Assembly: GCA_012959765.1 (NCBI GenBank)
Contig: DUCO01000008.1
Coordinates: 5,559-38,191 of the forward strand
Direction of reading: 5' to 3'
Source: Dehalococcoidia bacterium
Lineage (GTDB): Bacteria; Chloroflexota; Dehalococcoidia; Lucifugimonadales; Lucifugimonadaceae
DNA length: 32,633 bases
How positions within the stretch are numbered: position 1 is the stretch's first letter; each line of letters starts with the position of its first letter. Below the pieces are notes generated by a model. That model ran no database searches. It had not been told where the DNA came from and saw only the letters and a program-made list of their open reading frames with translations. The translations under genes were made by a program, and so were the position numbers. This document shows, one piece after another, positions 9,590 to 31,170 of this stretch.

Positions 9590-9593
9590 TGTT

Positions 9594-12496: not shown

Positions 12497-12511
12497 GCAA
12501 TATCTGTGCCA
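12497..12511 (-). promoter_or_regulatory. Sigma-54 promoter P1 (oxidase operon)
   Basis: The minus strand reads TGGCAC-AGATA-TTGC followed by T. The GG and GC cores are separated by exactly ten bases, matching the RpoN consensus TGGCACR-N4-TTGCW in every fixed position. The expected transcript start is near 12485, giving a leader of about 90 bases before the cytochrome start at 12394. Two dyads lie 76 to 131 bases upstream, where a bacterial enhancer-binding protein would sit. Confidence 0.85.
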
Positions 12512-12586
12512 CTTTCGAATAGCGGCGATAACTTCCCTGTATACGGTTCCTCTAGGCTCCCTTCGGCGCGGCCGGCCGTTCAGGAC

Positions 12587-12601
12587 AGAACGATCTGTTC
12601 T
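12587..12601. promoter_or_regulatory. Operator-like dyad, proximal, upstream of P1
   Basis: AGAACGATCTGTTCT is a perfect inverted repeat of AGAAC/GTTCT around five bases. It shares the GAAC-N5-GTTC core with the dyads upstream of P2 and P3. Its centre (12594) is 83 bases upstream of the -24 element. It is a candidate site for the NtrC-family regulator encoded at 21994-23373. That pairing is inference. Confidence 0.5.
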
Positions 12602-12627
12602 TTTCACCCGCGAGTGGCTGTGGTCAT

Positions 12628-12642
12628 GAAACGGAATATTCA
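12628..12642. promoter_or_regulatory. Operator-like dyad, distal, upstream of P1
   Basis: GAAACGGAATATTCA is an imperfect dyad that agrees at 13 of 15 positions with the distal site upstream of P3 (31265-31279). Its centre (12635) is 41 bases from the proximal site, the same distance as between the two P3 sites. Confidence 0.45.
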
Positions 12643-12765
12643 ATTTCTCGTCACTGGGCACGGGTGCGTCTTGCGGTATCGTGGCCAGACAACGAGTTAT
12701 TCCTGTTGTTCTTTCTCCCGGTACCACTTACTGATGCTGTGCCCCTGACGTTGCTGGCTGTGCGG

Positions 12766-15003
12766 TCACCCGGCAGCGGCCCCGACCGGTGTCGCGTGAA
12801 TCTCACCCAGGGCATCAATGCAGATCCAATGGAACGCCTCCTGCTCGTCCTCACGCAACAAGTCCAGCAGCCACGTTGTACTGTCCGAATCGTTCAGTCG
12901 CCTGAGCGTAGCTGCTGCCTCATGGCGAAGGCCGGCCGAAAAACGGAACAGATTGGCCTGTAACTGCCGCGAGAGTTGGGGACCCCCCATTGCGGGCGTC
13001 AGCCCCGCCATCGCTCTACGACACACGCTGCGATCCTCGTCCGCCAGCATTCGTGGTAGATGCAGTCCTGCCATTTCGCCACCGGCATCTGCCAGCGCCC
13101 TAACAGCCCAATCGCGCACGGTCGCTCCGGGATCATCTAACAGTCTGACCAACGCCGCATTCAGCACCGGGCTTTCCAGCCCCTTACCAATGCCCACCAG
13201 GGCATCGATCGCAGCGAGGCGCACTTGTTCCTCATCTGACTCAAGGCAACGCAACACTGGCTCAATCGCCGCAATGTCTCCGATCCGGCCCAGTGCCAGC
13301 AGCACCTCACGAGTCAGGCGCTCACTAGCTCCCTTAAGTGCCTCTACCAGCACCGGTACCGAGATCGAACCCGCGTCCGGGTATTCTCCCAACAGGCCCG
13401 CTGCCAATACCTGTACCGAGCCAACAGGAGCTGGAACCGGCTTGCCGGCGCCAACCTCCGGGTGGGGCGATGGCGGATCAGCATCATCGGATGCACTCAA
13501 TATGGCAGCCAACGTCGAGCTCTGGGCAGTGTGTCCGCCCACCAGCTCACGTAATGGATCAGCTGCAACAGTGCCTTCGCTCTTTGACTCCACGGAGTCG
13601 GTCGCGTCGTCTTCGGGCTCGGTTAGCGCGGGGTTTTCCGGTTGCACGTCAACTTTGACGCGCCGCAGCAGGTCGGATAAGAGCTGCACTGCCTTTTCGG
13701 GAGTCATCAATTCCACCAACCCTGTCAGTGCCGCCAGCGCCACCGCCTGATTGCGATCGAACACGGCACATTCAAGGGCTTCTAAGACTTTTTCATGTTC
13801 AAGCACGGTGTCAGCGTCGCACCCATCCGCTTCCAACTGTGTCACCCCGGCGATACGCCCCAAAGCGGCCGCAGCTCGAGCGCGGGTGTTCGCGTGAATC
13901 TTCGGGTCCTGTAGTATCGTCGCCAGATCACGTTCAACCCCCGGTCGGCCCAGGGCGCCCAGCGCGGTGACCACCTGATAACGCAGCCTTTCATCTTCCG
14001 TTGTCAGCAGGTTGCGCAACACCGGCACCGTCTTTGGGTCACCGCTGTCACCGAGAAGTCTGGTTATCTCGACTTTTAATTCCAGTCCGGCGTCAGACAG
14101 CATCTCCAGCAATCGCTCGACAACACCGGGTGCGTGTGTACGGACCAGAATATCAGCTGCCGCAACCTTGACCTGGCTGTCCAAATCGGTCAGCAACAGC
14201 GTTAACGGCACCGTCACCACTGGATGCTTAACTTCTGCCAGTGCCTGGCCCGCACTGATTCGTACCGTTGGGTCAACATCCAGCAGTGCGTTGATCAAGG
14301 CAAGCACTACGGCGCCTGGCCCTTCTGATTTGCTATCGCTGTGGGCTAAGGCACCCAGCGCATGAGCTGCGCGGCGGCGTGCTAGCGGCTTGGATCCGCC
14401 GGCCAGTTGTTCCAGCAAAAAGGCCCGGGCTCTGCTGTCATCCAGTTTTGACAGGACCTCGAAACCGGTTTCCTGCAGATCTTCGTAATCGGGGTCGGAG
14501 AGAATCTCAACTACTGGCGTAGTGGCCCGGGGATCGCCAATATCGCCCAGGGCGTTCAGCGCCTGGCTCTGGACCTCTAGAGAATCACCAAACTCCATGT
14601 CATCGATCGAAAGATCGAGTTGTGGCAGCCCGTCCTCACGCAAGCAGCGGATCAACGGCTCGACCGCCTGTGGCGCGCCCAGTTTGGCCAGCGCCCGCGC
14701 TGCCTCGATACGCACCTCACCCTCAGGATCATTTAATAGGCTCTCAACGAGATCAGGAACGGCTTTATTCTGGCCTGAACCGCCCAGCATGACCGCGACA
14801 TCCAGGCGTACATCCGGGTCCGGGTCGTGTAGCAAAGCGATCAGGCACTCAAGCGTCTCCCTATCGTCTACCTGCAGCCGACCCAGCGCCCGCACTGCAC
14901 AGCATCGCGAGAGCGAATTATCCCGTTCCAGAACGCCGCGCAACGCCGCCGCCACGACATCCCGTGCCGGGTCTTCGTTCACTGGCAACTGCTCCTCTTC
15001 CAT
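12766..15003 (-). CDS. HEAT-repeat (PBS-lyase-type) scaffold protein
   Basis: The product has 745 residues with no signal peptide or membrane helix, so it is probably cytoplasmic. Almost the whole length consists of paired-helix repeats of about 30 residues. Typical units read LLHDPDPDVRLDVAVMLGG, LLNDPEGEVRIEAARALAKLG, LLDDPGATVRDWAVRALADAG and LESDEEQVRLAAIDALVGIG. A low-complexity acidic linker (about residues 455-530, with PEDDATDSVESKSEG and DPPSPHPEVGAGKP) splits the solenoid in two. By family such repeats bind proteins, and some are phycobilin lyase relatives or maturation chaperones. The gene lies 161 bases after the Mo-subunit gene with no promoter that I can see, so it is probably co-transcribed. 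It could act as an assembly factor for the molybdoenzyme or its cofactor. This role is inference from position only. Confidence 0.8.
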   Translation of the reverse strand: MEEEQLPVNEDPARDVVAAALRGVLERDNSLSRCCAVRALGRLQVDDRETLECLIALLHDPDPDVRLDVAVMLGGSGQNKAVPDLVESLLNDPEGEVRIEAARALAKLGAPQAVEPLIRCLREDGLPQLDLSIDDMEFGDSLEVQSQALNALGDIGDPRATTPVVEILSDPDYEDLQETGFEVLSKLDDSRARAFLLEQLAGGSKPLARRRAAHALGALAHSDSKSEGPGAVVLALINALLDVDPTVRISAGQALAEVKHPVVTVPLTLLLTDLDSQVKVAAADILVRTHAPGVVERLLEMLSDAGLELKVEITRLLGDSGDPKTVPVLRNLLTTEDERLRYQVVTALGALGRPGVERDLATILQDPKIHANTRARAAAALGRIAGVTQLEADGCDADTVLEHEKVLEALECAVFDRNQAVALAALTGLVELMTPEKAVQLLSDLLRRVKVDVQPENPALTEPEDDATDSVESKSEGTVAADPLRELVGGHTAQSSTLAAILSASDDADPPSPHPEVGAGKPVPAPVGSVQVLAAGLLGEYPDAGSISVPVLVEALKGASERLTREVLLALGRIGDIAAIEPVLRCLESDEEQVRLAAIDALVGIGKGLESPVLNAALVRLLDDPGATVRDWAVRALADAGGEMAGLHLPRMLADEDRSVCRRAMAGLTPAMGGPQLSRQLQANLFRFSAGLRHEAAATLRRLNDSDSTTWLLDLLREDEQEAFHWICIDALGEIHATPVGAAAG

Positions 15004-15164: not shown

Positions 15165-17864
15165 CTAGGTGATATCCCGCCGTTTGAAGCTCATTTGGGA
15201 AAATGAGTGCTTGAACGTAGACTCACCGATTCGGGTTACCCGTGCTGAGGCAATCTTGTAACGGTAGTTCATGGTGATCGGATCAGGTACCCGGGGCGTG
15301 ATCACATTGGCTGGCATTGAGGGTTTGAGGAATTCGCTGAAAGCCACACCCTGCTTGATCGCCGGCGTGACCATGGCAATCGCCGAATACGCCCCCGAGA
15401 CCAGTTCGATATGGCCGTCTTTCATCAACCCGGAAAACCACATATCGTCACTCTTGACACCCAGATTGAAGTTCTTCTGCACCGGCACCCGACGCGACTC
15501 AACAGCGACCAGATCTCCAGACTCAATACCGCGGGCCAACGCATCCGCAGGGTGAATCTCGATGAAATTCATCGGCCAACGCTGCTGGGTGTAGGGGCGG
15601 CGTTCGTAGTCATCGAAGCCAGACTCCCACAATTCGTTGATACGCCCGTTGGTAACCCACAGCTCATCACCCTTGGGCTGCATGAACTCGTAAAAATCGG
15701 CCCACAGTTTCCAGGGTGACTTCACCAGGTTGAGCTTGCCGGTCTGAGTCTTGAACGCCAGCAGGCGCTTGTTATGCACCGTGGTGGCTTCTGGCCCACT
15801 ATCGGGAATGTCTTTACGGTTGTAATCGTGCAGGCGCTTGGTCTGGACGATACGGTCGCCGTCCAGTAACAAGGGTGCTTGCAAGCCTTTGGTACCAAAG
15901 CCCCGCAGGAAATCGTGGGCGCGCATACCTTTACGCCGGGCTACCACCCGAATGGCGTTATAGTCCTTGCGCGAGCCGCGGCTGAAGCGACAGGTCTCCT
16001 CGAAGACCTCGTTACTATCCTTCCAGTCAAATCCCTTGAAGCCCATCTTTTTGGCCAGTGAGGCCGCAATCTTCCAGTCGGGCATGGCTTCGCCCGGGGC
16101 ATCACAGAACTTGCCGTACAGGCGTACTCGCCGCTCTGAGTTGGCCCGTGTGAAATCTTCCTCACCCCAGCCGGCCGCTGGGAACACCAGGTCTGCGTAC
16201 TGGTTGCCGATCGGGTCGCGAAGGTAAATATCCTGATTGGCAATCACCATACCGCCCGAGTCGACCCGGCGCTTGAGGGTGTCGATAATGGTCTGCTTGT
16301 CGAAACTTCGCACCTGGTGGGGATTGAACTTGGTCAGTTTTTTAAAGGCATCTTCCAATGCCGAAGAACCGGGCATGGCCTGAATCCAGGTGGTCCCCAC
16401 CACGTAGGCAAAACGCACGTGGCCATCCTCAAGCCAGCGGTCCAGATCCAGTCGGTGGCGCCGGCGGCCCGGCACCTTGTACGGTGATTTCCAGGTCGGG
16501 TACTTACCGCCACTGACGCCGCCGCGCTGGTGGCCACCCAGACGGGTCATAATCTGACCTGGCCGGCCACCACATCCGAGTATCACACCTAAGGTGCCGA
16601 TCGATGCTGTATTCAGGTAGTTGTTCGACCAGTAATTACCCTTCTCAATACAGATCGAGGTCTTGACCCGCTCGCCGTTGGCTTTGGGTTTTGCCATCAT
16701 CTGCGCGGCGAGGTAGATCTTCTGTGGGTCGATACCAGCGATCTTGGCTGCTACCTCGACTTTCGATTCTTCCTGGGCCAACAGCCATTGCTTCCAATCC
16801 TCGAACCCTTTCACCTGAAACTTGCCCCAGGTGGTACGCCACTGCCAAGGAGTGTTACGGGTTCCCTGGCCAAAACCGGAGTCGGTCTCCCACTGATTGG
16901 CCACGTGCTTTTTGATAAATTCGGCGTCCTCCCAACCGTTTTCCACGATTACACGCTCGATCGCCATGTGCACCGCGGTGTCCGATCCCGGCACGATATC
17001 CAGGTGCAGACCGCCGTGTTTCTCAGCGTAGGCCACCCCGGCGGTGCGCCGAGGGTTAACCATGATGACCTTGGTGTGGTTACCATTAATGCCTTTGAGA
17101 ATCCAGTGGTTCCACAGCGTGGTCTTGGTCTCGAAAGGATCGGTGCCTGATATCAGCAAACAATCCGCCAATGCGAAGTCCTCATGAGAGGCGCCAAAAA
17201 TATCGTAACCAATATCTACCCACCCGGGGGCTGAATTGACGAACGAAGGATGGTCATGGTGCGCCACTGCAGGGCTGTTAATTGCTTTCAACGCCAGTTT
17301 GGTCAGCGCGTAAGTGTTCTCAAAGTATTGGTATGAAAAATACTTCATGGCCCAGGCTGACTCGCCATGGGTTTTGATTACGTGGTTGGATACTTCGGCC
17401 GCGATGTCCAAGGCGAAATCCCAGGTCACCGGCATCAGCAGATCGTTGATCCGCAACATCGGGTGCTGCAGGCGATCCTGGGTGGGCTTTTGCGGGTTAT
17501 AGACCTTCTGTGCGATACAACCCCCGCGGATACTGTGGCCCCCGCCTACGTTTACCACCCGCGACTTGTGGTCACCGACTACGGCGATATGGTGCATCTT
17601 GCCATTCCACTTGCCCTGGGTGTACTGGTTGGGTCCCACCCAGCCCCCCTGCCCGGGCCGCAGCGGGTAATTCAGACCCAGCGCATTCTGGTCTCTTTTC
17701 GGGCCCCCGCTGGGAGCTCCCACCGGCCACCGGTACACCTTGAAACCACAGGCCATGACACAATAGTCACAGCATGTGGTGATGACATCGGCGTCCTTCG
17801 GTGGCAGGGGTATCTGATCCTCTGGTTGATAGAACGGCTGTGAGTCTTTAGCTTGTTTTGACAT
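15165..17864 (-). CDS. idrA: Molybdopterin oxidoreductase, arsenite oxidase/iodate reductase branch (IdrA-like)
   Basis: The product has 899 residues. An N-terminal C-x2-C-x3-C set (Cys32, Cys35, Cys39) is followed by HSIRGG, with Ser111 in the place of the fourth cluster ligand. That is the 3Fe-4S arrangement of AioA, although a Cys follows at 116. RWP and QNALGL near residues 45-64, TDPFET near 241 and the RLGGH pair (Arg441, His445) also match the family. The AioA pocket segment with SECH appears as NSAPGWVDIG (residues 210-219), so the first arsenite-binding His is not kept; this alignment is from memory. There is no Tat leader, so export with the Rieske partner is likely, as in Aio and Idr. 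Two peroxidase genes next to the Rieske gene match the idrABP1P2 set, so respiratory iodate reduction in the periplasm is the best guess. Arsenite oxidation or another oxyanion remains possible. Confidence 0.75.
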   Translation of the reverse strand: MSKQAKDSQPFYQPEDQIPLPPKDADVITTCCDYCVMACGFKVYRWPVGAPSGGPKRDQNALGLNYPLRPGQGGWVGPNQYTQGKWNGKMHHIAVVGDHKSRVVNVGGGHSIRGGCIAQKVYNPQKPTQDRLQHPMLRINDLLMPVTWDFALDIAAEVSNHVIKTHGESAWAMKYFSYQYFENTYALTKLALKAINSPAVAHHDHPSFVNSAPGWVDIGYDIFGASHEDFALADCLLISGTDPFETKTTLWNHWILKGINGNHTKVIMVNPRRTAGVAYAEKHGGLHLDIVPGSDTAVHMAIERVIVENGWEDAEFIKKHVANQWETDSGFGQGTRNTPWQWRTTWGKFQVKGFEDWKQWLLAQEESKVEVAAKIAGIDPQKIYLAAQMMAKPKANGERVKTSICIEKGNYWSNNYLNTASIGTLGVILGCGGRPGQIMTRLGGHQRGGVSGGKYPTWKSPYKVPGRRRHRLDLDRWLEDGHVRFAYVVGTTWIQAMPGSSALEDAFKKLTKFNPHQVRSFDKQTIIDTLKRRVDSGGMVIANQDIYLRDPIGNQYADLVFPAAGWGEEDFTRANSERRVRLYGKFCDAPGEAMPDWKIAASLAKKMGFKGFDWKDSNEVFEETCRFSRGSRKDYNAIRVVARRKGMRAHDFLRGFGTKGLQAPLLLDGDRIVQTKRLHDYNRKDIPDSGPEATTVHNKRLLAFKTQTGKLNLVKSPWKLWADFYEFMQPKGDELWVTNGRINELWESGFDDYERRPYTQQRWPMNFIEIHPADALARGIESGDLVAVESRRVPVQKNFNLGVKSDDMWFSGLMKDGHIELVSGAYSAIAMVTPAIKQGVAFSEFLKPSMPANVITPRVPDPITMNYRYKIASARVTRIGESTFKHSFSQMSFKRRDIT

Positions 17865-17870
17865 ATCCGG

Positions 17871-18431
17871 TCACCCCGTGTTCAGGTTATCGAAGCGGCC
17901 GTAGATCAGGCCAAGCATGCCGACGGCATAGATGTCGTCGCCTTCCAGTTCCAGCAACACCTGCGGAAGGCTCTCGGTTGCATGACCGCCAATGACCATG
18001 CCGTGGCGCGTCAAATCGAAACTGGTCTGGTGCAATGGACAGGGCCCGAGCGCCTGATCCGGCGCACTAAAGGCACCGGGGCCCTCAAGAGAACCTCCCA
18101 TATGCGTGCACAGAGCGTTAAACGCGACGATATTCTGATCTGGGCCGATTCCACCACCAGCCAATGCGTCCAGCCGGAAAAGCAGACTATTAGAATTCTG
18201 GTACTCGTCCGGATAATTGAATTTATGTGGCGAATTCAACTTCAGTGCGCTCAATTTACCAATCAACTTGCGCGGATAACGGGCTACCTCAGCCGCCAGG
18301 GCCTTGCTATCCAGGCCTGGCAACCCCGGCAACAGCACTGTGCTGACGACTGCTGCGCTGCCACCAAAAAGGAATGCTCGACGCGTCATGCAGACGCCTG
18401 GTTTTTGAGTATCATCAATCGGATTTGACAT
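17871..18431 (-). CDS. idrB: Rieske 2Fe-2S small subunit (IdrB/AioB-like)
   Basis: The product has 186 residues. A twin-arginine leader (TRRAFLFGG near residues 16-24, then a hydrophobic stretch to about residue 47) directs folded export. The Rieske ligands are CTHMGG near residue 108 and CPLHQT near residue 131. The extra Cys pair that forms a disulphide in many Rieske proteins and in some AioB is absent (Gly and Leu instead). This points to a lower redox potential, by analogy with the family. AGGAAAAAGTC precedes the ATG. The gene sits 12 bases after the peroxidase gene and six before the Mo subunit gene, so the two subunits are made together. It probably passes electrons between the Mo subunit and a periplasmic cytochrome c. 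Confidence 0.83.
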   Translation of the reverse strand: MSNPIDDTQKPGVCMTRRAFLFGGSAAVVSTVLLPGLPGLDSKALAAEVARYPRKLIGKLSALKLNSPHKFNYPDEYQNSNSLLFRLDALAGGGIGPDQNIVAFNALCTHMGGSLEGPGAFSAPDQALGPCPLHQTSFDLTRHGMVIGGHATESLPQVLLELEGDDIYAVGMLGLIYGRFDNLNTG

Positions 18432-18443
18432 GACTTTTTCCTG

Positions 18444-19676
18444 TTATTGTTGGCCAACCGCAGCCAGGTAGCTTTCGAGGCCGATACGTTTAGCGCGGAT
18501 TTGGGTTAATCCGGGCACATTCGGCAACACACCGTAAGGCGGTACCTCGGGCAGTTTCATCCGGATCTCATCACCGCTGATCTCTTCGAGAAAAACCACC
18601 AGGGCCTCTTTTTCCTCGTCGCTCAGATTCAACGGCTTTAAGATTGGCGTCTTGTTCTCCAAGCCATGGGTGCCATCGGTGAACTCGTTCTCACCACCAC
18701 CTTCGTTGTAGAAGTCGATCACTTCTTCCAAGGTGTAGAACTGTCCGGCGTGCATATAAGGTGCGGTATAAACGAGGTAACGCAGCGGTGCCGTACGGTG
18801 TTTACCTACATCTACTGGCCGCTTGCTAGAAAAATACAGGCCGGCGTCATCCTTCCAACTGCGGTAGTGTTTCTCGTAAACGCCCTTGGCGTAGTTCTCC
18901 CAGCGGAAGGTCACGGTGTTAAGCCCCATCTCTTCCCACTCAAATGGTCGTGGTACACCCAGGTTGTAATACTTCTCGTCCGTCAGGGTCGAGCCGTTGT
19001 GACATTCGATGCAATTTGCCTTACCCTCAAACAACTGTTTACCCATCACCGCCTGCTCGGATAATGCATCCAGGTCGCCAGCCAGATAACGATCAAGTGG
19101 TGTATCTTGCTGACTAAGGGTCCGTTCAAAGGTGGCAACGGCCATCCACGCGTCCCCTAGGTTAGGCTGCTGGGTTCCGAAAACCTCACGAAATTTTTCG
19201 ATGTAGTACGGTGTCTGACGCAACCTAGCTTCCATCACGTCGTCCTCACCGTTGCCTGCCACAGCCCCTTTGTTGGCGATGGGTGCTTGCGCTTCGAGAC
19301 TCTTGGCGTTTCCCTGCCAGAACAGCTTGCTCAGATAGGCGGTATTAACAACAGTCTGCGAATTACGCCAGTGAACCGCGCCGGGATATCCGCGCGAGAT
19401 CGGATCGTTAAACCCCCAACCTTGTTTGGGATCATGGCAGTCACCACAACTGAGGCTGGCGTCACCGGTCAACTTGGGGTCAAAGAACAGCATCATGCCC
19501 AAATCCGCTTTCGCTTGTGTAATCGGGTTATCCGGTGGGGCCGGTGGAGGCGGTAACGGTGCCAACGGTGGATCGATATCTGGGTCACCCGTCGCCAGGG
19601 ACGCGGGGCTCGCCAGAAACAGTGCCGTAGCCAGAGTCACGACTAACGATAGGGGCATCTGCAGTTGCGCTTTCAT
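18444..19676 (-). CDS. idrP1: MauG/CcpA-type dihaem peroxidase (IdrP1/P2-like), Rieske-adjacent copy
   Basis: The product has 410 residues from the ATG at 19674-19676, which has GGAG seven bases upstream and opens a signal peptide (MPLSLVVTLATALFLASPAS). A longer start at 19721 would overlap the preceding gene by 29 bases. A Pro-rich segment (residues 40-52) leads into the dihaem peroxidase fold: CGDCH near residue 82 with the KQGWGF stretch, and CIECH near residue 227 in KANCIECHNGSTLTDE. TAPYMHAGQFYTLEEVIDFYN is the usual C-terminal signature. In iodate reducers such proteins are thought to remove peroxide formed at the Mo subunit. The P1 name is given by adjacency to idrB only, and the two copies might be swapped. 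Confidence 0.78.
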   Translation of the reverse strand: MKAQLQMPLSLVVTLATALFLASPASLATGDPDIDPPLAPLPPPPAPPDNPITQAKADLGMMLFFDPKLTGDASLSCGDCHDPKQGWGFNDPISRGYPGAVHWRNSQTVVNTAYLSKLFWQGNAKSLEAQAPIANKGAVAGNGEDDVMEARLRQTPYYIEKFREVFGTQQPNLGDAWMAVATFERTLSQQDTPLDRYLAGDLDALSEQAVMGKQLFEGKANCIECHNGSTLTDEKYYNLGVPRPFEWEEMGLNTVTFRWENYAKGVYEKHYRSWKDDAGLYFSSKRPVDVGKHRTAPLRYLVYTAPYMHAGQFYTLEEVIDFYNEGGGENEFTDGTHGLENKTPILKPLNLSDEEKEALVVFLEEISGDEIRMKLPEVPPYGVLPNVPGLTQIRAKRIGLESYLAAVGQQ

Positions 19677-19692
19677 GATGTTCTCCACTGGG

Positions 19693-20847: not shown

Positions 20848-20866
20848 CTATATCCCCTCTTCTGGT

Positions 20867-21661
20867 TTACTCGGAGTCGGAGAACGTGAAATTTGCGCTT
20901 GCTGTCGCACCGGCAGACACGCTGATTTTTGCCTTCTGGATGCCAAAGCGTGGATGCCAAGCCTTGACGGTGTAGTCCCCTGATGGCACGCCATCAATTA
21001 AATAACTGCCATCCTCGCCGACGACCACCGCGTACGGGTGCCCCGGGGCCATCATGAAACCGAACATGAAATTGTGGGCCTCGCAATTCAAACTGATGAA
21101 TGGCGATCGGCGCGGTTTCAGCTTTTTGATGATGTCACCCGGATCAGGTTGGCCGAAATTGAACATGGTCCGCTTTACTACCCGACCCTTTTCAACGCCA
21201 ATCATCTCGCGGGTGTTGATGTTGTGCAGGACTGAATCGGGATCCGCATGGCGTATGGTGATCTTGCCGGGCCGGACAACCTGCGCCCATGGGCGAAATC
21301 GACAACCCTCCTGCAGTACCAGATACCCCTCTCCCTGGGGCTCGCCCCATTGCTTGCCCGAAGCGATCTTGTCTATAAATACAAAGCTGCCTCGCAACGC
21401 GCCGTCTTTGACGTCTACCCATACGACCTCGCGGTAGCCGCTACCATCTTCGTCACACACATCCGGGTTTTTGTTGATGGCGATTCGATCTATTGCGTCC
21501 ACCGGCAGTTCTCCAGTGAAAGTGACGCGCCCAGAAATGTTCCCGCCATCGGTTACTTCGATCTCCTGGTACTGCTTTTTGGCCGCGAGTCCTGCTGGGG
21601 GGAACGCCAGCAGTAGGCTCAGGGCCGCCAGCAACTGACCCGAACGTCGAAACATTGACAT
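20867..21661 (-). CDS. Periplasmic cupredoxin-like / carboxypeptidase-regulatory-like protein
   Basis: The product has 264 residues. AGGAG stands eight bases before the ATG, and a signal peptide (LLAALSLLLAFPPAGLA) is present. The first part has a Ca-binding-like beta domain (ISGRVTFTGELP). A middle part contains LHNIN, then NCEAHNFMFGFMMAPGHPYAVV. The His, Cys, His and Met in that order are the ligand set of type 1 copper proteins, although the spacing is not the textbook one. The last 45 residues (GSYLIDGVPSGDYTVKAWHP) form a carboxypeptidase-regulatory-like fold. It is the first gene after promoter P2 and precedes the peroxidase genes. It could be a periplasmic copper electron carrier or a structural partner of the molybdoenzyme. 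Function is not established. Confidence 0.7.
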   Translation of the reverse strand: MSMFRRSGQLLAALSLLLAFPPAGLAAKKQYQEIEVTDGGNISGRVTFTGELPVDAIDRIAINKNPDVCDEDGSGYREVVWVDVKDGALRGSFVFIDKIASGKQWGEPQGEGYLVLQEGCRFRPWAQVVRPGKITIRHADPDSVLHNINTREMIGVEKGRVVKRTMFNFGQPDPGDIIKKLKPRRSPFISLNCEAHNFMFGFMMAPGHPYAVVVGEDGSYLIDGVPSGDYTVKAWHPRFGIQKAKISVSAGATASANFTFSDSE

Positions 21662-21862: not shown

Positions 21863-21993
21863 AACTTAGGCGGGATAAGGCTACACGGCGTTCACTATGG
21901 AGACGGCAGACGACCCGGAAAATCGCCGGCGCCTTGCGCCTAACCTAGACATGCATGCGTGGTACGACAAAGGCCCGGACGAAGGCTAAAGGG

Positions 21994-23373: not shown

Positions 23374-26300
23374 CGGCCTTGGTGATCCTCGCCTCACCGG
23401 CAATGCCCCCAGGCCCTGCGACGAGAGCAACCGGTGTATCGGCTTGTTTGTCAGGCTTTTGTAACGGCCGCGTCGGCAAGATAATGGATGCCCGAGCACC
23501 ACCGACAGGCTCGTTTTCCAGAGTCACAATGCCGCTGTGGGCTCCGATGATCTGGCGAACGATGGTCAAGCCAAGCCCGGTTCCCTTGGCCCGACTGGTA
23601 AAAAAGGCATCAAATGCACGACGGCCGGCTTCGGCGTCCAATCCGGGCCCATTATCTATTATCTCGATCCGGATCACAGGAGTTTCCTCACCCAGATCGA
23701 GGTGGGTTCGGACGCTAATCCGGGGGCTCACCGTTCCTGCTTCAGCACAGGCCTCAATCGCATTCATAATCAGATTGGAAACGACTTGTTGCAAGCGGTG
23801 TGAATCACCATAGATGGTCGGTAGTGAAGGCTGGTTCCAGGCGTTCAGTTGTACCTGGTAACGTTGAAGTTGCTCTTGGCAAAGGAGAATGGTCCTTTCT
23901 ATGGTTTTGGTGATATCAAACCACTCCCGTTTGAGCACCGGCGGGCGCGAGTAGGCAAGCAGTTCGTTCAGGATATTTTCCATGTACTGTACCTGTTCCA
24001 ATGCAATAACGCGCAATTCCTCATCGCCAGAATCAGAGCCCTTGTCAGAGGAGCGGCTCATGATTTGCAATCCCATCTTCACCGAAGACAAAGGATTGCG
24101 AAGATCGTGAGCGACCATCGCGGCCATACGACCCACCGTAGCGAGGGCGTGAGTTTCAACAACCTGCCGGTTGCGCTCCTCCAGTTTGTGCTTCAGTGTT
24201 TCGTGCACGGTCAGGTCAATAATGGAGCTAAGCACCATGATCCCGTCTTCGGTGTCTATCGGATTAAGGCCAATGTCCACCGGGATTCGGTGTCCGTCAC
24301 GGTGTTCACCAAAAAGAGCTACTCCGGTTCCCATTTCCCGGGTCGCCGGCGCGCGCCGATAGTCTCGGCGCAGGCCTGCATGATGCTTACGTGCCTGCTG
24401 GGGCACTAATATCTCTATCGGCTGGCCGAGGATTTCCTCGCGACTGTAGCCAAACATCTGCTCGGCCCGAGAATTAGCCAGGACAATCAGGCCATCAGAA
24501 TTGGACAGCACCATCGCGCTCGGCGCAGCTTCCACCGCCAGTTTGAAATTTTTCTCCAGTCGGGTCCGCTCAGTGATGTCCTCTTTCGTAGCCAAAAAAT
24601 GAGTTATCTCACCGGCCTCGTTACGCAGTGGCGAAATCCGAGCTGTCTCAGAATAGACTTGGCCACTCTTTTTCCGGTTATAAAAAACCCCTTTCCAGTC
24701 ACGACCCGCTTTGAGATTCGCCCAGAGTTGCCGGTAATCCTCTGGCGGGGTCTTACCGGATTTGAGAATGCTCGGTTTACAGCCGAGCACCTCCGCGCTG
24801 CTATAACCTGTCAACTCACTGAATCGTGCATTAACGTATTCAATGTGACCGTCGATATCGGTAATCATCACCGACACCGGGCTTTGCTCGGTGGCGACAG
24901 CAAGCCTGCGAAACCGCTCATCCTCCGGCAATTCCTGCCGCGGCACAGCACCGAGATAGACCACGCCCGTAACTACACCGGCGCTGTTACGCTGTAACGA
25001 CTCGCTCCAATTCAACCGATAGTTATCGCCGCCGCGCCCATAGAGGCCGGCGTCCAGCAAGCCGGGGTCCCGTTTGCCCCCGGATAATTCCCGAAGGCGC
25101 GCACGGCAGGCCTCACCTGCCGTCGGGGCGACCAGGGTGTCAATCCGGGACTTGCCCAGCAGGTGCGCTCGAGAATAGCCCGAATACTCCAACACCGAAT
25201 CGTTCACAAAAACGATATGGTCAGAAAGGTCTGTAGCAATCACGGGATTAGGTGCATATTTGAGCGCCTCAACCAATGGTTCACACTGTCCAAGCCATAC
25301 CCGGGCACCCAACTGTGCTGCCCGCACAATACCGTAGCCGACAGTTGCGAGCATTACCAGGAGAAGCAGAAGTCCATAGGCTATAAGATAATTTCCCAAA
25401 CCCAACTCCTGGCGCAGTAACCCGGCGGGAAAAAGCGACACCACAAACCAGGCCGGCGAAGAAGTTTCGAGTACACCAGCCGATGAGAGGGAGTTAAGCC
25501 GGGTAAAAGTAAACATACCGCGGCGGTTGAGGTGGGTACCAGAAACCTGTTGCGCCATCTGTCGCCAGATTGTGGGGTAGTGATTCTGGAACCGGGCATC
25601 TGAGTCGTAGGCGAAACCCCATTCGAGCTCCTGGCGTGGGCTACTGAGCCAGTAACCCCGCTGATCCAGTACCGTCAGCCGATCACCGGCTGCTCCCATA
25701 CCCGCCCTGAAGATCTCGGCCAAGGCCTCACCACGGTAATTAATCAGGACTACGCCACGGGGGTGACCACCATCATCAAATACCGGCGTCGCAACCCGGA
25801 ACATGGGCCGCGGAACCGCTTCGGACTCACCCCATTCGACATTGACATCAACCGGCGAAATATAGATCTGGCCCGCCTCCAGATCACGAGCTTGAGTGAA
25901 ATAGTATCGCTTGGACTTGTCCTGAAGATCCTGTCGCTCTACCACCTCGAGTCCCTCCGGGCTCAGGTTGATTCGCACAATTTCCCGGCCGGGGTAGTTG
26001 AGGAGTCGAATCTGGTCGTACATCGGCCGTTCCCGACCTAACATGCTGAAGTACTCAGCCAGGGTCCCGGCCCGTGAATCCCCAAGAGACGCGGGAACGC
26101 CGACCCGTTCAACAATCTGGGCTAATACCCGTATGTCAGAGACGGCGCTGGCGAGCGCCCCTTGAACGACCAAGCGAGCCTGATCCACCACCAGGCGCTC
26201 TTGCTGGCGCTGGTCTTCCCGGAATCTCTTAAGGTCCAGGAAGTACTGGCCGACCCCAATCAGGATGACCGTCAATGCAATAACCAGCAACAAGACCGCC

Positions 26301-26470
26301 GACTCGATCAGAGCGCGATTACGCGGATTCTGTACGGTCGGCTTCGTTCTCACAACACCAACCGGAGCCAATGCCCCGGTCCCGATCGAAGTTGGCACGC
26401 CAAGCCAGGCATTACGACAACACTGGCCCAGATACCTGGGCAGCAAAAGGTTTATCTTTCTGGTTGCCAT
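23366..26470 (-). CDS. Membrane-bound PAS sensor histidine kinase
   Basis: The product has 1034 residues if the ATG at 26468-26470 is used. That start overlaps the flavoprotein gene by 59 bases. A GTG at 26351-26353 just after that gene is an alternative and would remove 39 residues before the first helix. A membrane helix (about 55-75) and a second one (about 375-395) enclose a Cache-like periplasmic sensor of about 300 residues. Three PAS domains follow (NPVIATDLSDHIVFVN, SPVSVMITDIDGHIEYVN, SAMVLSNSDGLIVLAN). The kinase core has the phospho-His in VAHDLRNPLSS near 788, an N box (NLIMNAIEA) and G boxes (DNGPGL, GTGLGL). The partner is the response regulator encoded directly downstream. The signal is unknown. 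A periplasmic ligand such as the oxyanion, or redox state through PAS, is possible. Confidence 0.88.
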   Translation of the reverse strand: MATRKINLLLPRYLGQCCRNAWLGVPTSIGTGALAPVGVVRTKPTVQNPRNRALIESAVLLLVIALTVILIGVGQYFLDLKRFREDQRQQERLVVDQARLVVQGALASAVSDIRVLAQIVERVGVPASLGDSRAGTLAEYFSMLGRERPMYDQIRLLNYPGREIVRINLSPEGLEVVERQDLQDKSKRYYFTQARDLEAGQIYISPVDVNVEWGESEAVPRPMFRVATPVFDDGGHPRGVVLINYRGEALAEIFRAGMGAAGDRLTVLDQRGYWLSSPRQELEWGFAYDSDARFQNHYPTIWRQMAQQVSGTHLNRRGMFTFTRLNSLSSAGVLETSSPAWFVVSLFPAGLLRQELGLGNYLIAYGLLLLLVMLATVGYGIVRAAQLGARVWLGQCEPLVEALKYAPNPVIATDLSDHIVFVNDSVLEYSGYSRAHLLGKSRIDTLVAPTAGEACRARLRELSGGKRDPGLLDAGLYGRGGDNYRLNWSESLQRNSAGVVTGVVYLGAVPRQELPEDERFRRLAVATEQSPVSVMITDIDGHIEYVNARFSELTGYSSAEVLGCKPSILKSGKTPPEDYRQLWANLKAGRDWKGVFYNRKKSGQVYSETARISPLRNEAGEITHFLATKEDITERTRLEKNFKLAVEAAPSAMVLSNSDGLIVLANSRAEQMFGYSREEILGQPIEILVPQQARKHHAGLRRDYRRAPATREMGTGVALFGEHRDGHRIPVDIGLNPIDTEDGIMVLSSIIDLTVHETLKHKLEERNRQVVETHALATVGRMAAMVAHDLRNPLSSVKMGLQIMSRSSDKGSDSGDEELRVIALEQVQYMENILNELLAYSRPPVLKREWFDITKTIERTILLCQEQLQRYQVQLNAWNQPSLPTIYGDSHRLQQVVSNLIMNAIEACAEAGTVSPRISVRTHLDLGEETPVIRIEIIDNGPGLDAEAGRRAFDAFFTSRAKGTGLGLTIVRQIIGAHSGIVTLENEPVGGARASIILPTRPLQKPDKQADTPVALVAGPGGIAGEARITKADG

Positions 26471-27851
26471 TACCGCCCCGCACGGGCCGGTAGCGCGCGG
26501 CGCCACTATGCGCTTCATCGGCGATCCGCTCTGCCAAAGCCGCACCCTGAGCCAACCGGTCACGCACCGACACGCCACCGCTGTAGGCGCCACACAGGTG
26601 CAAGCCTGGAGCGCCCCGCAACTGCTGATGAATTGCCTCAAGCCGCTGCGAATACGCGCCGAAATACAATGGCAGCCCCTGGGGGTGGCGATCGATCCTG
26701 GTCATCGTTGGGTCGGCGCGTAATCCCAGAAGGGAGGACAGATCTGTCGCCACCTTATCGATGACTGTTGTATCGCCATCGGCCAACGCTTGCGGTTGGC
26801 GTGCTCCCCCGAGGTAACAGCTAAGGAGCACATGGCCACTCGGCGCCCGCCCTGGCAACACCCCGGCTGGCCAAAGGCAACCATTGATTGATCGACCTTC
26901 ACAGCCGGGCACCAGGAAACCTGTTCCGTCCAGCGCGTGTTCCACGTCACCGCGCTCGTACCCCAAATGTGCCACCATCACTGGCGCATAGCGGATTCCC
27001 GCCAGTAGTCCGGCAAGCTCCGGGTCAACGTTCGCCAAAAGTTGGGCTGCAGCTGGTGCCGGTGTGGTCAAAACCAAATGCCGGGCCTGCACCACGGTGC
27101 CATCCGCCGCCTGTGCCTGCCAACCCTCAGTGCTGCGACTGATCACTGCAGCGGTACGGCCCAGTTGCGGTCGAACCGTCGCTGCGAGAGACTCGGCCAG
27201 ACTTTGCATTCCACCCTGAAAACTCACCGCCGTGCCAATCGATCTTCGACCGCGCCGCGCCAGGCGTTGACACACGATCCCGGCAGTAATACTGCCGTAA
27301 CGTGTTTCCAACCCGGTTAGTCGCGGCAGGGTTGCACGAGCCTCGGCCCGCTCCGGGTCGGATGCCAACGACGCGGCAACATAAGGCTCGATTCCATAGC
27401 GCAGGACTTCCCCACCGAAACGTCGACGCACGAAGTCAGCTACGGTTTCGCCCAGTTGGTCTCGCCGCGGCATAAACGGCTCAAGCGCCATACGAATCCG
27501 TCCCGTGGTACTGAAAAGCCCCGACCCCAGGGCTCGGGCAACCGACACCGGCACGCGCCGCAACACCCCATCTCGCAGTAAGTATCGCGCCGCATCCGGT
27601 TGTTTCTGCAGCAGCAGCGGGCCGAGCCCTAACGATTCGATGACGTGAGTTGGATCTCCAGCAGGGTCCATCAGCCACGTCGCACCTGCTTCGGTAAGCC
27701 AGCCGTGTCGACGTACCGACCGGATCTTGCCTCCAGCGCAAGGTCCTCTTTCCCACAGCGTCACATCCAGCCCATGACCCTGCAAATGCCAGGCTGTCGC
27801 CAGACCCGAGATTCCACCCCCGATTACAAGTACGTCCTGCATTTCACCCAT
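26412..27851 (-). CDS. Protoporphyrinogen/coproporphyrinogen oxidase-type flavoprotein (HemY/PgoX-like)
   Basis: The product has 479 residues from the ATG at 27849-27851. A GTG five codons earlier overlaps the previous stop, and an ATG three codons later is also possible. The FAD-binding VLVIGGGISGLATAWHL and the second motif (WERGPCAGGKIRSVRRHGWLTEAGATWLMDP) open the protein. The C terminus has LHLCGAYSGGVSVRDRLAQGAALAERI, the end motif of the oxygen-dependent protoporphyrinogen oxidases. A VEGLE-like substrate domain lies between them. By family it oxidises porphyrinogens to porphyrins in the haem pathway, at the membrane or in the cytoplasm. It is coupled to the radical SAM gene upstream, and a role in making a special haem for the cytochromes of this regulon is an inference. 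Housekeeping haem synthesis is the plain alternative. Confidence 0.82.
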   Translation of the reverse strand: MGEMQDVLVIGGGISGLATAWHLQGHGLDVTLWERGPCAGGKIRSVRRHGWLTEAGATWLMDPAGDPTHVIESLGLGPLLLQKQPDAARYLLRDGVLRRVPVSVARALGSGLFSTTGRIRMALEPFMPRRDQLGETVADFVRRRFGGEVLRYGIEPYVAASLASDPERAEARATLPRLTGLETRYGSITAGIVCQRLARRGRRSIGTAVSFQGGMQSLAESLAATVRPQLGRTAAVISRSTEGWQAQAADGTVVQARHLVLTTPAPAAAQLLANVDPELAGLLAGIRYAPVMVAHLGYERGDVEHALDGTGFLVPGCEGRSINGCLWPAGVLPGRAPSGHVLLSCYLGGARQPQALADGDTTVIDKVATDLSSLLGLRADPTMTRIDRHPQGLPLYFGAYSQRLEAIHQQLRGAPGLHLCGAYSGGVSVRDRLAQGAALAERIADEAHSGAARYRPVRGGNGNQKDKPFAAQVSGPVLS

Positions 27852-27856
27852 AGCGC

Positions 27857-29110
27857 TTACCGCCACTCCCGTGGTGGCCCTGCCGGACCAAAACGCCGAG
27901 CTGCCATGGTTTTCAGATGACTAGGGGTCACACAGTTGTGTCCCTGCTCCTGGGCAAAGACTTCGGCACGGCGACGAATCATCTTGCGCAATGGTGCGGG
28001 AATCCGGGCAAGGCGCTGTTCGGCCGCAACCGTCCAGCGTACAGCCCCGCCGACGTGCCGTGGCAATGGTGCAATAACGCCTTCCCCAACCGGTTGATAA
28101 CCACAAGCGGGGTCCTCACCCATGAGCCCGTGACCTTGTGCCAACGCCCCGGCCCGGCAACCACCGCAGAGCAAGCGGTATTCACAAACACCACACTTTC
28201 CCGAGAACTCCCCCTGCCGCAGTTGTTGAAGTGTTGGCGATTGCTGCCACAGATTAGCGAGCTCGCTGTCGCGCACGCTACCCAGCACATCCGGTATGTA
28301 CGGGCAAGCCGTCAGTTCTCCATGACTGGTCACCCGGCAGTAATGGGTGCCCGCTATGCAACCGTCACCTTCCGACCCACTGATCAGATTCGTCGCAGAA
28401 GGCGCGGACTGGGACAAGGCGACCCGTTTGAACTGTGGGGCGCAACGCGGTCGGACGATAAATTCCGGGTACTGCCGCTGCAATTCCACCAGTTGTTGTA
28501 GCACCTGTTCATGTTGGGTCCAACTCAGGCGGCTCGATGCCGTACCTCGGCCCGTACAGATAACGAAGAACACGTTAAGCACCCGGGCACCGCTTCGTGC
28601 CGCAAACCCGGCTATACCCGGCACCTCGTCAACCGTGTCAGGCGTTACTGTGAAGTGCAACTGAAAATCGAGTTCGCGTTCCCGGCAATGCTTAATCGCA
28701 GCCATGGTCCTGTGCCAGGCGCCCGGTAGACCCCGGAAACGGTCGTGCCGTTCCGGATCCATTGAATCTAGGCTGATACCTATTCCGGCGACACCGGCTG
28801 CTTGGAGCGCCGCTGCCCGCCTGCGGGTCAGCATGACGCCATTAGTGCCCACCACCATAACCAAGCCACTGGCGACGCCGTGCCGGCATATCGTCTCCAG
28901 ATCCGCCCGCACCAACGGTTCGCCACCGGTCAACACAACCATGGTCGAATGACCCATTGCGCCAACCTGATCAAGCACTTGACACACCGCCTCGGTATCC
29001 AGTTCATCCGGATCTGATTGCTGCAGCGAATCTGCATCCAGATAGCAGTGGGGGCAGGCAAGATTACATCGGCGGGTCAGATTGAAAGCCAGTAGCCGCA
29101 GTTCGTTCAC
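27857..29110 (-). CDS. Radical SAM/SPASM protein of NirJ/AhbC/AhbD type with C-terminal PCP_red-like domain
   Basis: The product has 417 residues from a GTG at 29108-29110, with GGGGTG about seven bases upstream and 20 bases after the previous stop. A longer frame would overlap that gene by 95 bases. FNLTRRCNLACPHCY (C-x3-C-x2-C) binds the radical SAM cluster, LTGGEPL and GISLDS follow. The C-terminal CGVCEYRLLCGGCRA and DPAC supply SPASM ligands in the pattern seen in haem-modifying NirJ, AhbC and AhbD. The last 50 residues (WTVAAEQRLARIPAPLRKM...) match the PCP_red-like repeats found four times in the preceding gene product. By family it would alter side chains of a sirohaem-derived or other tetrapyrrole, with the flavoprotein next door acting on the same class of compound. 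The exact substrate is unknown. Confidence 0.8.
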   Translation of the reverse strand: MNELRLLAFNLTRRCNLACPHCYLDADSLQQSDPDELDTEAVCQVLDQVGAMGHSTMVVLTGGEPLVRADLETICRHGVASGLVMVVGTNGVMLTRRRAAALQAAGVAGIGISLDSMDPERHDRFRGLPGAWHRTMAAIKHCRERELDFQLHFTVTPDTVDEVPGIAGFAARSGARVLNVFFVICTGRGTASSRLSWTQHEQVLQQLVELQRQYPEFIVRPRCAPQFKRVALSQSAPSATNLISGSEGDGCIAGTHYCRVTSHGELTACPYIPDVLGSVRDSELANLWQQSPTLQQLRQGEFSGKCGVCEYRLLCGGCRAGALAQGHGLMGEDPACGYQPVGEGVIAPLPRHVGGAVRWTVAAEQRLARIPAPLRKMIRRRAEVFAQEQGHNCVTPSHLKTMAARRFGPAGPPREWR

Positions 29111-29129
29111 ACTTTCACCCCGACCGGGC

Positions 29130-31091
29130 TTAACTCGGCGTACCAGAGTCGTCAACAGATTGGTACTGACTCGGATGGTGTTCGCTGTGAAAACTACCGC
29201 TGCCGGCCCAGGTAGCGCGGGCATGACGCAGCACCTCAGGGGTCACTTCGGCAAGCCCCAGGTCATGGGCGCAACGTTCCATCTCCCGGATGACCATTCC
29301 CCGCACAAAATCTGGAATCTTTGCTACCGTAGCTTGTGCTTGTGCCTGCCACGGCAAGGTGGTAGCCAGCGCCTCTGACCCGGCCGCCCACTGCGCATAC
29401 TTTCCTTCGATCACCTCCTCGGTAATCTCAGTTTGGCCCTCACGTGCAGCAAAAGCCTCAATACGATGACGCGTCAGATCCCGCATAAAGCCAGCCGGAA
29501 CCTTTTTCAGCCGTTGTTGGGCGTCTTCACTCCAGTCCATCTGAGCCGCGCCGACGGCTGCCGATCGGTCGACCCTGTCGTGGCCGAAGGGACACTTGGG
29601 CCGACCCGGCTCCCCGGCCCCTCCGATAAAATACGCGACGTGCTCCGGCAATACCCGTTCGGCACCCTGACGGCGGGCATACTTCTGTGAGCGTGCGCGG
29701 ATATTGTCCTGCTCTCCAGGGTCACTGATCTTATTCAGTTGTGCCTCGGCCTGCGACGACCAAGGCATCGGACCCACCGCTGCGGGCTGCTGTAATTCAC
29801 CCCGCGCGTCGGCCTCAACGATATCGCGCATCGCCCGGGTGGCATGGGCCGGACACAGTGTGGCGGTGATCTCCTCCACCATCCCGGCCGTAATTACGGT
29901 ATGACCACGCTGACTCGCCTCGCGCAAAATCGCGGTCCGGGCCATGGCCTGGGCGAAATCCGGAACCCGGGAAATACTTTGTTCCGCCTCAACGGTCCAG
30001 GATGTGGTTACCTCGGCCACCGCTTCTACCGGCGGCTGGTATTCACGTTGGCTAACCAACACAGCACAGTCCGCAGCGCGCAACAGATGTTCCGTGTTGC
30101 CACCGATATCCAGACCCGGGTCCGCATGTACGCCGAGCTTTCCCATGATCAGCAGTGAGGGTTTAACAGTTTGAAGATACCGGGCGATGGCATCATGCGG
30201 TTTGCCATCCAGCAGTTGTACGGTCACTTCGATACCGTGCCCCGCCACGATAGTCTCGGCCACATCGAGATGGCCCTGGTAAATCTTGGCCAGGCCTGAA
30301 TCAATGATCTCCTCATGTAACTTTTCCTGCTCCTGGAACCGGAATATCTTGCTGGCCCGCTCCGACAACACCCCGGCAATGCGATTAAACGCAACGTAGT
30401 GGTAATAAGGATCGAATGCCGCGACCACATGCAACGGGCAGTGCCAATAGCGAACCAGGTTGAGCGCAGTCAGCAATCCGCCCCAAGCCCGGCTCGAACC
30501 ATCTACCGCCACCACGATCGGCCCGGTTGCCAAACTCGCCTCCGGGTTCTTGACCACCAGGGTGTCGATCTCCGCCCTGCGGACTACCCGGGAGCAAACA
30601 GTACCCAGGCGCTCTCCGGGAACTGCTCCAAGGCCACGCGCCCCTATTACTAATAAGTCATGGTTACCGCTGTTGGTGGCCGCTGTGAGAGCCCGGTAGT
30701 TCTTTCCTTCCAGCGCCTCGCGATGAAACTCCACCTGGGCCTCTCCACAAACCTGTGCCGCGTGGTCGAGATACGAGTCGGTGATGATGGCCAAACCCCG
30801 GCTAATGAGATCATCGTGAACATCCCGTTGCCGTTCCAACTCCTGCTCCACACGAAACTGCTCGGGCAGCCCTCCTTCCATCTGCCGGAAACGCCGGTCA
30901 TGCAGCATCGCGGCGTAGGCGTGAGTTCCGGTCACCCGGGCGTTCGACAAAGCTGCGATTCCGGCCGCCTCGACAGTGGCACGATTGGCGTGATCGGAAG
31001 CGTCCAGCGCCAACAGAATGTTCTGGTATTCAGGGAGGGCTGTCGTCTCGGGGTGCGGCCGCAACGCGGCGGAGGCAATCGGAGCGCTCAT
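29130..31091 (-). CDS. Tandem universal stress protein with four PCP_red-like repeats
   Basis: The product has 653 residues from the ATG at 31089-31091, preceded by AAAGGAT. The frame runs on to 31166, but that would start inside promoter P3. Two USP domains come first: NILLALDASDHANRATVEAA near residue 24, with GARGLGAVPGERLGT as nucleotide loop, and IVVAVDGSSRAWGGLL near residue 190, with MGKLGVHADPGLDIGGNTEHL. Then four repeats of about 50 residues follow, each starting W-x-x-x-A, with an (I/V)P turn and a closing (V/I)TPEV-like helix. These resemble the C-terminal domain of light-independent protochlorophyllide reductase (PCP_red). The protein is cytoplasmic by lack of a leader. It may bind ATP and an iron-sulphur- or tetrapyrrole-handling partner, but no function is established. 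It is the first gene of the unit that ends with the sensor and regulator. Confidence 0.85.
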   Translation of the reverse strand: MSAPIASAALRPHPETTALPEYQNILLALDASDHANRATVEAAGIAALSNARVTGTHAYAAMLHDRRFRQMEGGLPEQFRVEQELERQRDVHDDLISRGLAIITDSYLDHAAQVCGEAQVEFHREALEGKNYRALTAATNSGNHDLLVIGARGLGAVPGERLGTVCSRVVRRAEIDTLVVKNPEASLATGPIVVAVDGSSRAWGGLLTALNLVRYWHCPLHVVAAFDPYYHYVAFNRIAGVLSERASKIFRFQEQEKLHEEIIDSGLAKIYQGHLDVAETIVAGHGIEVTVQLLDGKPHDAIARYLQTVKPSLLIMGKLGVHADPGLDIGGNTEHLLRAADCAVLVSQREYQPPVEAVAEVTTSWTVEAEQSISRVPDFAQAMARTAILREASQRGHTVITAGMVEEITATLCPAHATRAMRDIVEADARGELQQPAAVGPMPWSSQAEAQLNKISDPGEQDNIRARSQKYARRQGAERVLPEHVAYFIGGAGEPGRPKCPFGHDRVDRSAAVGAAQMDWSEDAQQRLKKVPAGFMRDLTRHRIEAFAAREGQTEITEEVIEGKYAQWAAGSEALATTLPWQAQAQATVAKIPDFVRGMVIREMERCAHDLGLAEVTPEVLRHARATWAGSGSFHSEHHPSQYQSVDDSGTPS

Positions 31092-31155
31092 GGTACTTAT
31101 CCTTTGTGTGGTAGGTAACTGACGCGACTGCACCGTCGCGTTCTTCAGTTGGGAC

Positions 31156-31170
31156 GCAAGAAACATGCCA
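31156..31170 (-). promoter_or_regulatory. Sigma-54 promoter P3 (sensor/radical SAM operon)
   Basis: The minus strand reads TGGCAT-GTTTC-TTGC, one base from the best consensus, with GG and GC ten bases apart. The expected start of transcription is near 31144, giving a leader of about 53 bases before the USP gene at 31091. Two operator-like dyads lie upstream at 31224-31238 and 31265-31279. Confidence 0.8.

Follow-up and report, generated by a model that had tools for sequence, protein, structure and literature searches.

Three sigma-54-type promoters with a common upstream operator point to one regulon around an Idr-type respiratory module

The window analysed here is a stretch of 32,633 nucleotides from contig C8 (DUCO01000008.1, 38,191 bp) of a bin labelled Dehalococcoidia bacterium (GCA_012959765.1, below G000). 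It carries genes for an Idr-type molybdoenzyme, bd-like oxidase subunits, putative haem-modifying enzymes, a sensor kinase and an NtrC-type regulator. Judged from the sequence, it is quite probable that the kinase and the sigma-54 activator constitute a self-amplifying circuit, which would drive the Idr-type respiratory module through three promoters.

The pattern TGGCAYNNNNNTTGC was matched exactly upstream of three gene units, each time on the minus strand and with exact GG-N10-GC spacing, and the palindrome TGAACG-N3-CGTTCA, or weaker copies of it, was found 53–116 bp upstream of each -24 box. The gene labels cyc1, cup, usp and P1/P2 are our own. The elements are as follows.

31156–31170, minus strand: -24/-12 element TGGCATGTTTCTTGC of unit 3 (usp), exact match.
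31224–31238, minus strand: proximal operator copy TGAATAGAGTGTTCA (9/12) of unit 3, 53 bp from the -24 box.
31265–31279, minus strand: distal operator copy TGAACATTTCGTTTC (9/12) of unit 3, 94 bp from the -24 box.
21746–21760, minus strand: -24/-12 element TGGCACGTTTGTTGC of unit 2 (cup-idr), exact match.
21848–21862, minus strand: operator TGAACGATACGTTCA (12/12) of unit 2, 87 bp from the -24 box.
21880–21894, minus strand: operator half-site TGAACG (8/12 over 15 bases) of unit 2, from a five-row alignment.
12497–12511, minus strand: -24/-12 element TGGCACAGATATTGC of unit 1 (cyc1-bd-like), exact match.
12587–12601, minus strand: operator AGAACAGATCGTTCT (9/12; core GAACN5GTTC exact) of unit 1, 75 bp from the -24 box.
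12628–12642, minus strand: operator copy TGAATATTCCGTTTC (8/12) of unit 1, 116 bp from the -24 box.
22102–22116, minus strand: fourth exact -24/-12 match from the pattern scan, within the regulator gene.

Counted by hand, the distance from element to ATG was 102 nt for cyc1 (12394), 84 nt for cup (21661) and 64 nt for usp (31091). The three start codons are our own choice; the longest open reading frame (ORF) of usp begins at 31166, within the -24/-12 element, and the ATG at 31091 was preferred as a matter of judgement. A preliminary description of this DNA had placed three near-perfect, right-facing elements 60–110 bases before gene starts, in agreement with these distances, and had overlooked the fourth match, with which the exact TGGCAYN5TTGC total in the window rises to four, all on the minus strand. 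This fourth match was retained in the 99% relative L027 (loci are numbered L, genomes G), was not listed among the elements of L028 or L029 and lies in a coding region; it was rejected as a promoter for these two latter reasons and is probably due to chance.

The upstream activating sites are palindromic and constitute predicted binding sites, with a layout that is largely kept among relatives. At usp, the proximal copy had the same position in L028 and was located 50 bp from the -24 box in L029, while the distal copy, 41 bp from the proximal one, was unchanged in L028 and 91 bp from the -24 box in L029. At cyc1, the distal copy likewise lies 41 bp from its partner, with the same position in L027 and a distance of 117 bp from the -24 box in L028. 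Operators paired 41 bp apart were thus found at cyc1 in the window, L027 and L028, at usp in the window, L028 and L029, and also in L150 and L160. The cup operator was positioned 85–89 bp from the -24 box in the window, L027, L028, L029, L030 and L034, and the half-site, of which TGAAC is invariant in the five-row cup-promoter alignment, was located about 32–33 bp further upstream by an eye count on that alignment. The runs of invariant columns in the alignment correspond to the half-site, the palindrome and the -24/-12 element. Exact copies of GAACN5GTTC occurred only twice in the window, at the cup and cyc1 promoters.

The -24/-12 pattern by itself does not single out the three sites: it matched exactly 23 times across the whole bin and 40 times in the relative G120 (reversed control, 6 and 12, respectively). 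A strict composite of operator and -24/-12 element was scanned in 20 whole genomes, and its three matches in the 2.6-Mb bin were the three promoter sites only. Five further matches were obtained in G120, three in G121 and one in G122 (12 in total with the bin), the remaining 16 genomes had none, and the reversed composite gave no match in any of the 20. Every match stands ahead of genes that belong to this cluster or to a second kinase-regulator pair, the additional ones being located between a regulator C-terminus and P1 (L159), between HEAT and cyc1-usp (L160) and upstream of the second kinase-regulator pair (L150). These three loci (L159 and L160 on G120 contigs C218 and C222, L150 on G122 contig C18) are diverged second pieces of the cluster or of the kinase-regulator pair with the same operator and promoter, and may represent either a paralogue or a second strain. 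With looser limits, four matches were found in the window and six in 69 control loci (L038–L106, 1.34 Mb); when the -24/-12 element was required to be exact, the numbers were three and two.

Position, conservation in relatives and the common upstream operator raise the three elements above chance. L027 retained the cup and cyc1 elements, the latter unchanged, and its contig also has the usp and coding-region elements. In L028, exact elements precede the kinase gene, the cup/P1 unit and cyc1 (TGGCACGAATATTGC) despite a changed gene order, and the one before the kinase gene is identical to the unit 3 element, its counterpart in L029 being TGGCACGTTTCTTGC. Two exact elements were found in L029. 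The cup element is conserved in L027, L028 and L029 and occurs as variants in L030 (where the element is TGGCACGCTTCTTGG), L034 and L036, the last two with one mismatch; L036 also has an exact element before usp. In G127 (L193), TGGCATCAATAGTGC precedes usp together with two 11/12 operators. In loci without the regulator, the 450 bp upstream of cup contained nothing comparable, save an element with two mismatches at 410 bp in L032. Operators and elements, as predicted here, are retained while the flanking sequence diverges. The preliminary description would have abandoned its proposal had the elements not been conserved upstream of orthologous operons; they are kept there, even where gene order has changed (L028).

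The operator also tracks the regulator. Among 21 genomes searched, regulator orthologues of at least 53% identity were detected in G120, G121, G122 (two), G123, G126, G127 and G129, with weaker matches in G134 (45%) and G135 (40%). A recognition helix of the form SRPRLRRLI is kept in the seven orthologues' genomes, and that of three more distant regulators is different. An operator of at least 10/12 was found upstream of the idr unit in six of seven loci with the regulator (best scores 12, 12, 10, 12, 11, 11 and 8) and in none of the thirteen without (8–9; Fisher, P = 1.8e-4), compared with 132 of 4000 random 450-bp pieces. Removal of the close kin L027–L029 left 3/4 versus 0/13 (P about 0.006, worked by hand). 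In this count, L035 was left out as its locus lacks P1, the scan covered 750 bp for L028 and L029 and 450 bp for the others, and L041 and L042 were scored as lacking the regulator although their genomes contain the 45% and 40% matches. Since the motif was chosen after inspection of the window, the P values serve as guides only. Within a 15-row molybdoenzyme clade the regulator is scattered (four changes on the tree) and the operator follows it; L033, for example, has both, whereas its sister L032 has neither. As the three promoters have a common upstream operator, and with the conserved elements and this co-occurrence of operator and activator, the proposal of a single regulon is better supported than the preliminary description could show.

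The genes of the window, all on the minus strand, were annotated as follows.

29130–31091, minus strand: usp, first gene of unit 3, with two Usp domains and three PCP_red stretches (Pfam; start chosen by hand).
27857–29224, minus strand: radical SAM/SPASM protein with PCP_red (Pfam, NCBIfam).
26412–27866, minus strand: protoporphyrinogen-oxidase-like flavoprotein (TIGR00562, 226 bits; cut-off 97.85).
23366–26641, minus strand: sensor histidine kinase with HK_sensor_dom_bact/Cache, PAS, HisKA and HATPase domains (Pfam), its true start being uncertain and downstream of 26641.
21994–23502, minus strand: NtrC-type response regulator with receiver, Sigma54_activat and Fis-type helix-turn-helix domains (Pfam; orthologues).
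20867–21661, minus strand: cup, first gene of unit 2, a CarboxypepD_reg-type secreted protein (Pfam).
18444–20847, minus strand: two CCP_MauG di-haem proteins, idrP1-like (19693–20847) and idrP2-like (18444–19721) (Pfam).
15165–18431, minus strand: idrB-like Rieske subunit (17871–18431) and idrA-like molybdoenzyme (15165–17864) (Pfam, NCBIfam, tree).
12766–15003, minus strand: HEAT-repeat protein at the end of unit 2 (Pfam).
4885–12394, minus strand: unit 1, comprising cyc1 (11756–12394), a bd-like subunit (9594–11759) and cytochrome c proteins down to 4885 (Pfam).
3–4161, minus strand: second bd-like subunit (2170–4161, Pfam) and cytochromes.

The regulator has the phospho-acceptor Asp in its receiver, an AAA+ domain with intact GAFTGA and a Fis-type helix-turn-helix, which bears out the earlier statement that the third unit encodes a sigma-54 activator with this loop; the orthologue of G127 has GSFTGA. 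The Idr-type core is present, with P1, P2, Rieske and molybdoenzyme genes adjacent. The molybdoenzyme passes TIGR02693 (arsenite oxidase large subunit; 387 versus 359 bits) and lies outside the AioA branch, the AioA rows branching apart with 100/100 support in a tree of 33 rows from which L008 was left out. The radical SAM/SPASM protein came nearest to the NirJ2/AhbD models. As this protein scores below the NirJ2/AhbD cut-offs, while the protoporphyrinogen-oxidase-like one passes TIGR00562, a haem-modifying role of the two is plausible rather than proven. The HEAT-repeat gene, in the interval between molybdoenzyme and cyc1, keeps its place in many clusters and is weakly conserved (31–66% outside the same species). 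Upstream of usp, an ORF at 31479–31790, possibly a remnant, resembles by eye the Nitr_red_assoc domain, which is fused to a SCO1 domain in a protein of L021 (L021:3217-4332). To the left of the window, three ORFs (L021:629-3220) resemble by eye a modA, modB, modC molybdate transporter set.

We infer the operon limits from tight gene spacing only. Terminator-like sites (15 versus a shuffle mean of 14.2, and 22 versus 16.2, in two stretches) were not used for this purpose because their counts are near the shuffle means. Sigma-70-type promoters numbered two and four in two scanned stretches, below the shuffle means of 8.3 and 7.8. In the proposed circuit, the membrane sensor kinase would detect an extracellular or redox signal and phosphorylate the NtrC-type activator, which would bind the TGAACG-N3-CGTTCA operators upstream of the -24 boxes, arranged in pairs spaced 41 bp or as palindrome plus half-site. 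Its AAA+ domain (GAFTGA) would then open sigma-54 RNA polymerase at three promoters: the first would yield usp, the radical SAM and protoporphyrinogen-oxidase-like genes, the kinase and the activator itself (positive autoregulation), the second cup-idrP1-idrP2-idrB-idrA-HEAT, and the third cyc1, the bd-like gene and cytochromes. As a guess, iodate or a similar oxyanion may be the signal, perhaps with gating by low oxygen. The sensor stretch of the kinase is 32% identical over 221 positions to that of the kinase of the Azonexus idr locus, and both match HK_sensor_dom_bact; this likeness would fit a related signal, for example iodate, but the domain family may be broad.

Several observations weigh against a single regulon of this extent. 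When two mismatches were allowed, the window held 64 -24/-12 matches against a shuffle mean of 69.6, i.e. no excess, and GAACN5GTTC within one mismatch occurred 18 times where 12.6 would be expected, which is no enrichment of the motif by itself. One of the loose composite matches (22804) falls inside the regulator gene. Of the four composite-positive genomes, one is the bin that holds the window and the other three are closely related to the contig; as close kin, they are not independent. The cup operator of L036 scores only 8/12, and its genome (G129) showed no rpoN; L033 has an 11/12 operator with a degenerate -24/-12 sequence at 61 bp (TGGTGTGAATCCTGC, three mismatches). Unit 1 is separated from the second bd-like set (1–4161) by 723 bp (4162–4884), which leaves the membership of that set in unit 1 unproven; the earlier claim that the regulon covers most of the window holds as far as tight gene spacing goes and stops short of this set. 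Finally, no Sigma54_DBD match was found in the bin (2.63 Mb, 92% complete).

The best-surviving alternative, which we consider unlikely, is that only part of the units, such as cup-idr and the autoregulated one, are under sigma-54 and the activator, with the bd-like unit mainly under another regulator, for example of FNR type. In its favour, cyc1 and its own element were seen only in the Acidiferrobacteraceae loci, and in four loci (L030, L033, L034 and L036) the bd-like gene comes after HEAT and has no composite element before it. The cyc1 promoter nevertheless has both the element and paired operators in the window, L027, L028 and the second copy L160. The usp promoter contains one exact FNR-type box, TTGATAGAGGTCAA (31249–31262, minus strand), between its two operators, which hints at an oxygen input; L029 has the same box and L028 a near copy, CTGATCGAGGTCAA. 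Since the FNR-type pattern within one mismatch was no commoner in the window than in shuffles (3 versus 3.0), control of this type was not adopted as the main explanation.

Less probable still is that the promoters are idle relics, the host of the contig having acquired the cluster by transfer and lacking sigma-54. The Sigma54_DBD domain was indeed absent from all 60 genomes (the bin and 59 relatives), and the bin has a single strong sigma-54 activator domain, that of the window's regulator (218 bits), the two weak ones elsewhere scoring 31 and 23 bits, one of them in a ClpB-like protein by eye. Other evidence, however, assigns the contig to a different host. The gene at the end of contig C8, metB-like by eye, matched only six of the 59 bin relatives at E <= 1e-30 (best 46%), compared with 78% identity in G120 and 76% in G122; the best match in G121 was only 43%, which does not help this argument. 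Three Acidiferrobacteraceae metagenome-assembled genomes (MAGs) have the molybdoenzyme at 99, 96 and 90% identity, against 48–55% in 11 of 119 bin relatives, and window bases 1–31361 align to G120 contig C9 at 97.0%. In tetranucleotide signature, the two window halves correlated with seven stretches of G120–G122 at 0.62 and 0.65 (within-group 0.66) and with seven bin stretches at 0.35 and 0.38 (between-group 0.33). A ClpB-like protein encoded on another contig of the bin shares 88–89% identity with those of four genomes in the same genus and no more than 55% with those of G120–G123. Because composition, the metB-like gene and the molybdoenzyme resemble Acidiferrobacteraceae MAGs, we conclude from these likenesses that contig C8 is mis-binned and has its kin among them. 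Of 15 genomes bearing the cluster, 14 yielded rpoN, G120–G122 among them, the exception being G129 (L036). The preliminary description had named a genome without rpoN as grounds for refutation; this is literally the case for the bin, and the near relatives of the mis-binned contig carry the gene. The absence of rpoN is resolved only through the mis-binning argument, and it calls for caution, since a naive search for rpoN would have wrongly dismissed the finding. The retention of operators and elements amid diverging flanks also speaks against relics. That three good matches in a 33-kb window arose by chance, as the 23 exact matches in the bin and the lack of excess with two mismatches might suggest, is hardly credible given a composite unique to the three sites in the bin, conservation amid diverged flanks and a mean of 0.017 exact-element composites over 60 Markov windows versus three observed.

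Comparison with known systems indicates where a single regulon would go beyond them. Control of aoxAB by sigma-54 and AoxR has been demonstrated in Herminiimonas (PMC2848651), and AioXSR is summarised in a review (PMC7533571). Like the window, the AoxRS/AioXSR systems with RpoN (Herminiimonas, Agrobacterium) combine a kinase, a GAFTGA regulator, a -24/-12 promoter (TGGCACGCAGTTTGC) and a homologous Rieske-molybdoenzyme operon, and in Herminiimonas, too, strains that lack the regulator also lack the element (PMC2848651). The AioR site is GTT-N10-AAC, footprinted as GTTCGGATTTCCGAAC (PMC5335332), and a site of this type precedes an exact element in the pSinA aio locus; the arms of the window's operator face the opposite way (GAAC-N5-GTTC), and pSinA AioR is 33% identical to the window's regulator. 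Membership of an AioR regulon was rejected on the basis of this operator and the low identity. No periplasmic-binding protein of aioX type was found among the 19 window ORFs scanned with Pfam. Unlike the Aio systems, the window would have three units under common control, including bd-like and haem genes.

For idr, a sigma-54 regulator (atoC) and kinase (atoS) lie upstream of the genes in Azoarcus sp. DN11 (PMC10149662), a two-component system has been proposed to sense iodate (PMC8801600), and idr of Roseovarius azorensis is iodate-inducible (PMC11445184); in PMC8692401, 'sigma' and 'regulat' are confined to methods and references. The Azonexus hydrophilus plasmid likewise has kinase-regulator-P1-P2-B-A, with TGGCACAGTGACTGC before P1, no operator of at least 9/12 listed ahead of that element and no bd-like or haem gene annotated in the 18.7 kb covered. 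Its regulator is 35% identical to the window's and has a different recognition helix; it has GAFTDA instead of GAFTGA (L196:3596-4966), yet a -24/-12-like element precedes idrP1. The idrABP1P2 loci of marine Alphaproteobacteria share the four-gene core, with molybdoenzymes about 59% identical to the window's that form a clade (100/100) separate from its 15-row clade, and no regulator orthologue at E <= 1e-90 was found in the two alphaproteobacterial idr genomes searched (L048 and L066). In a literature search that covered few subscription journals, no paper was found joining idr to bd-like genes, linking Acidiferrobacteraceae with iodate, or describing an operator common to such units or idr, bd-like oxidases and haem enzymes under one regulator. 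The link that the preliminary description took to be undescribed thus needs narrowing: the literature already has the Aio family under sigma-54 control and a sigma-54 regulator as a neighbour of idr, so that only the wider coupling looks new.

A further, more doubtful possibility is that the Idr-type molybdoenzyme, the two di-haem peroxidases, the bd-like cytochrome chain and the haem-tailoring set form one undescribed machine, made on demand under one kinase, in which the tailoring set (radical SAM, protoporphyrinogen-oxidase-like and Usp-PCP_red proteins) would supply the bd-like oxidase or the peroxidases with a modified haem. If this were true, iodine-oxyanion turnover and oxygen or peroxide handling would be a single pathway. 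The operator can be used to find further members of the regulon. Together with the regulator, it provides a concrete tie of bd-like oxidases, the radical SAM protein with PCP_red, Usp-PCP_red and cup to the Idr-type enzyme in uncultured marine bacteria, and a joint function of these uncharacterised genes thereby becomes testable.

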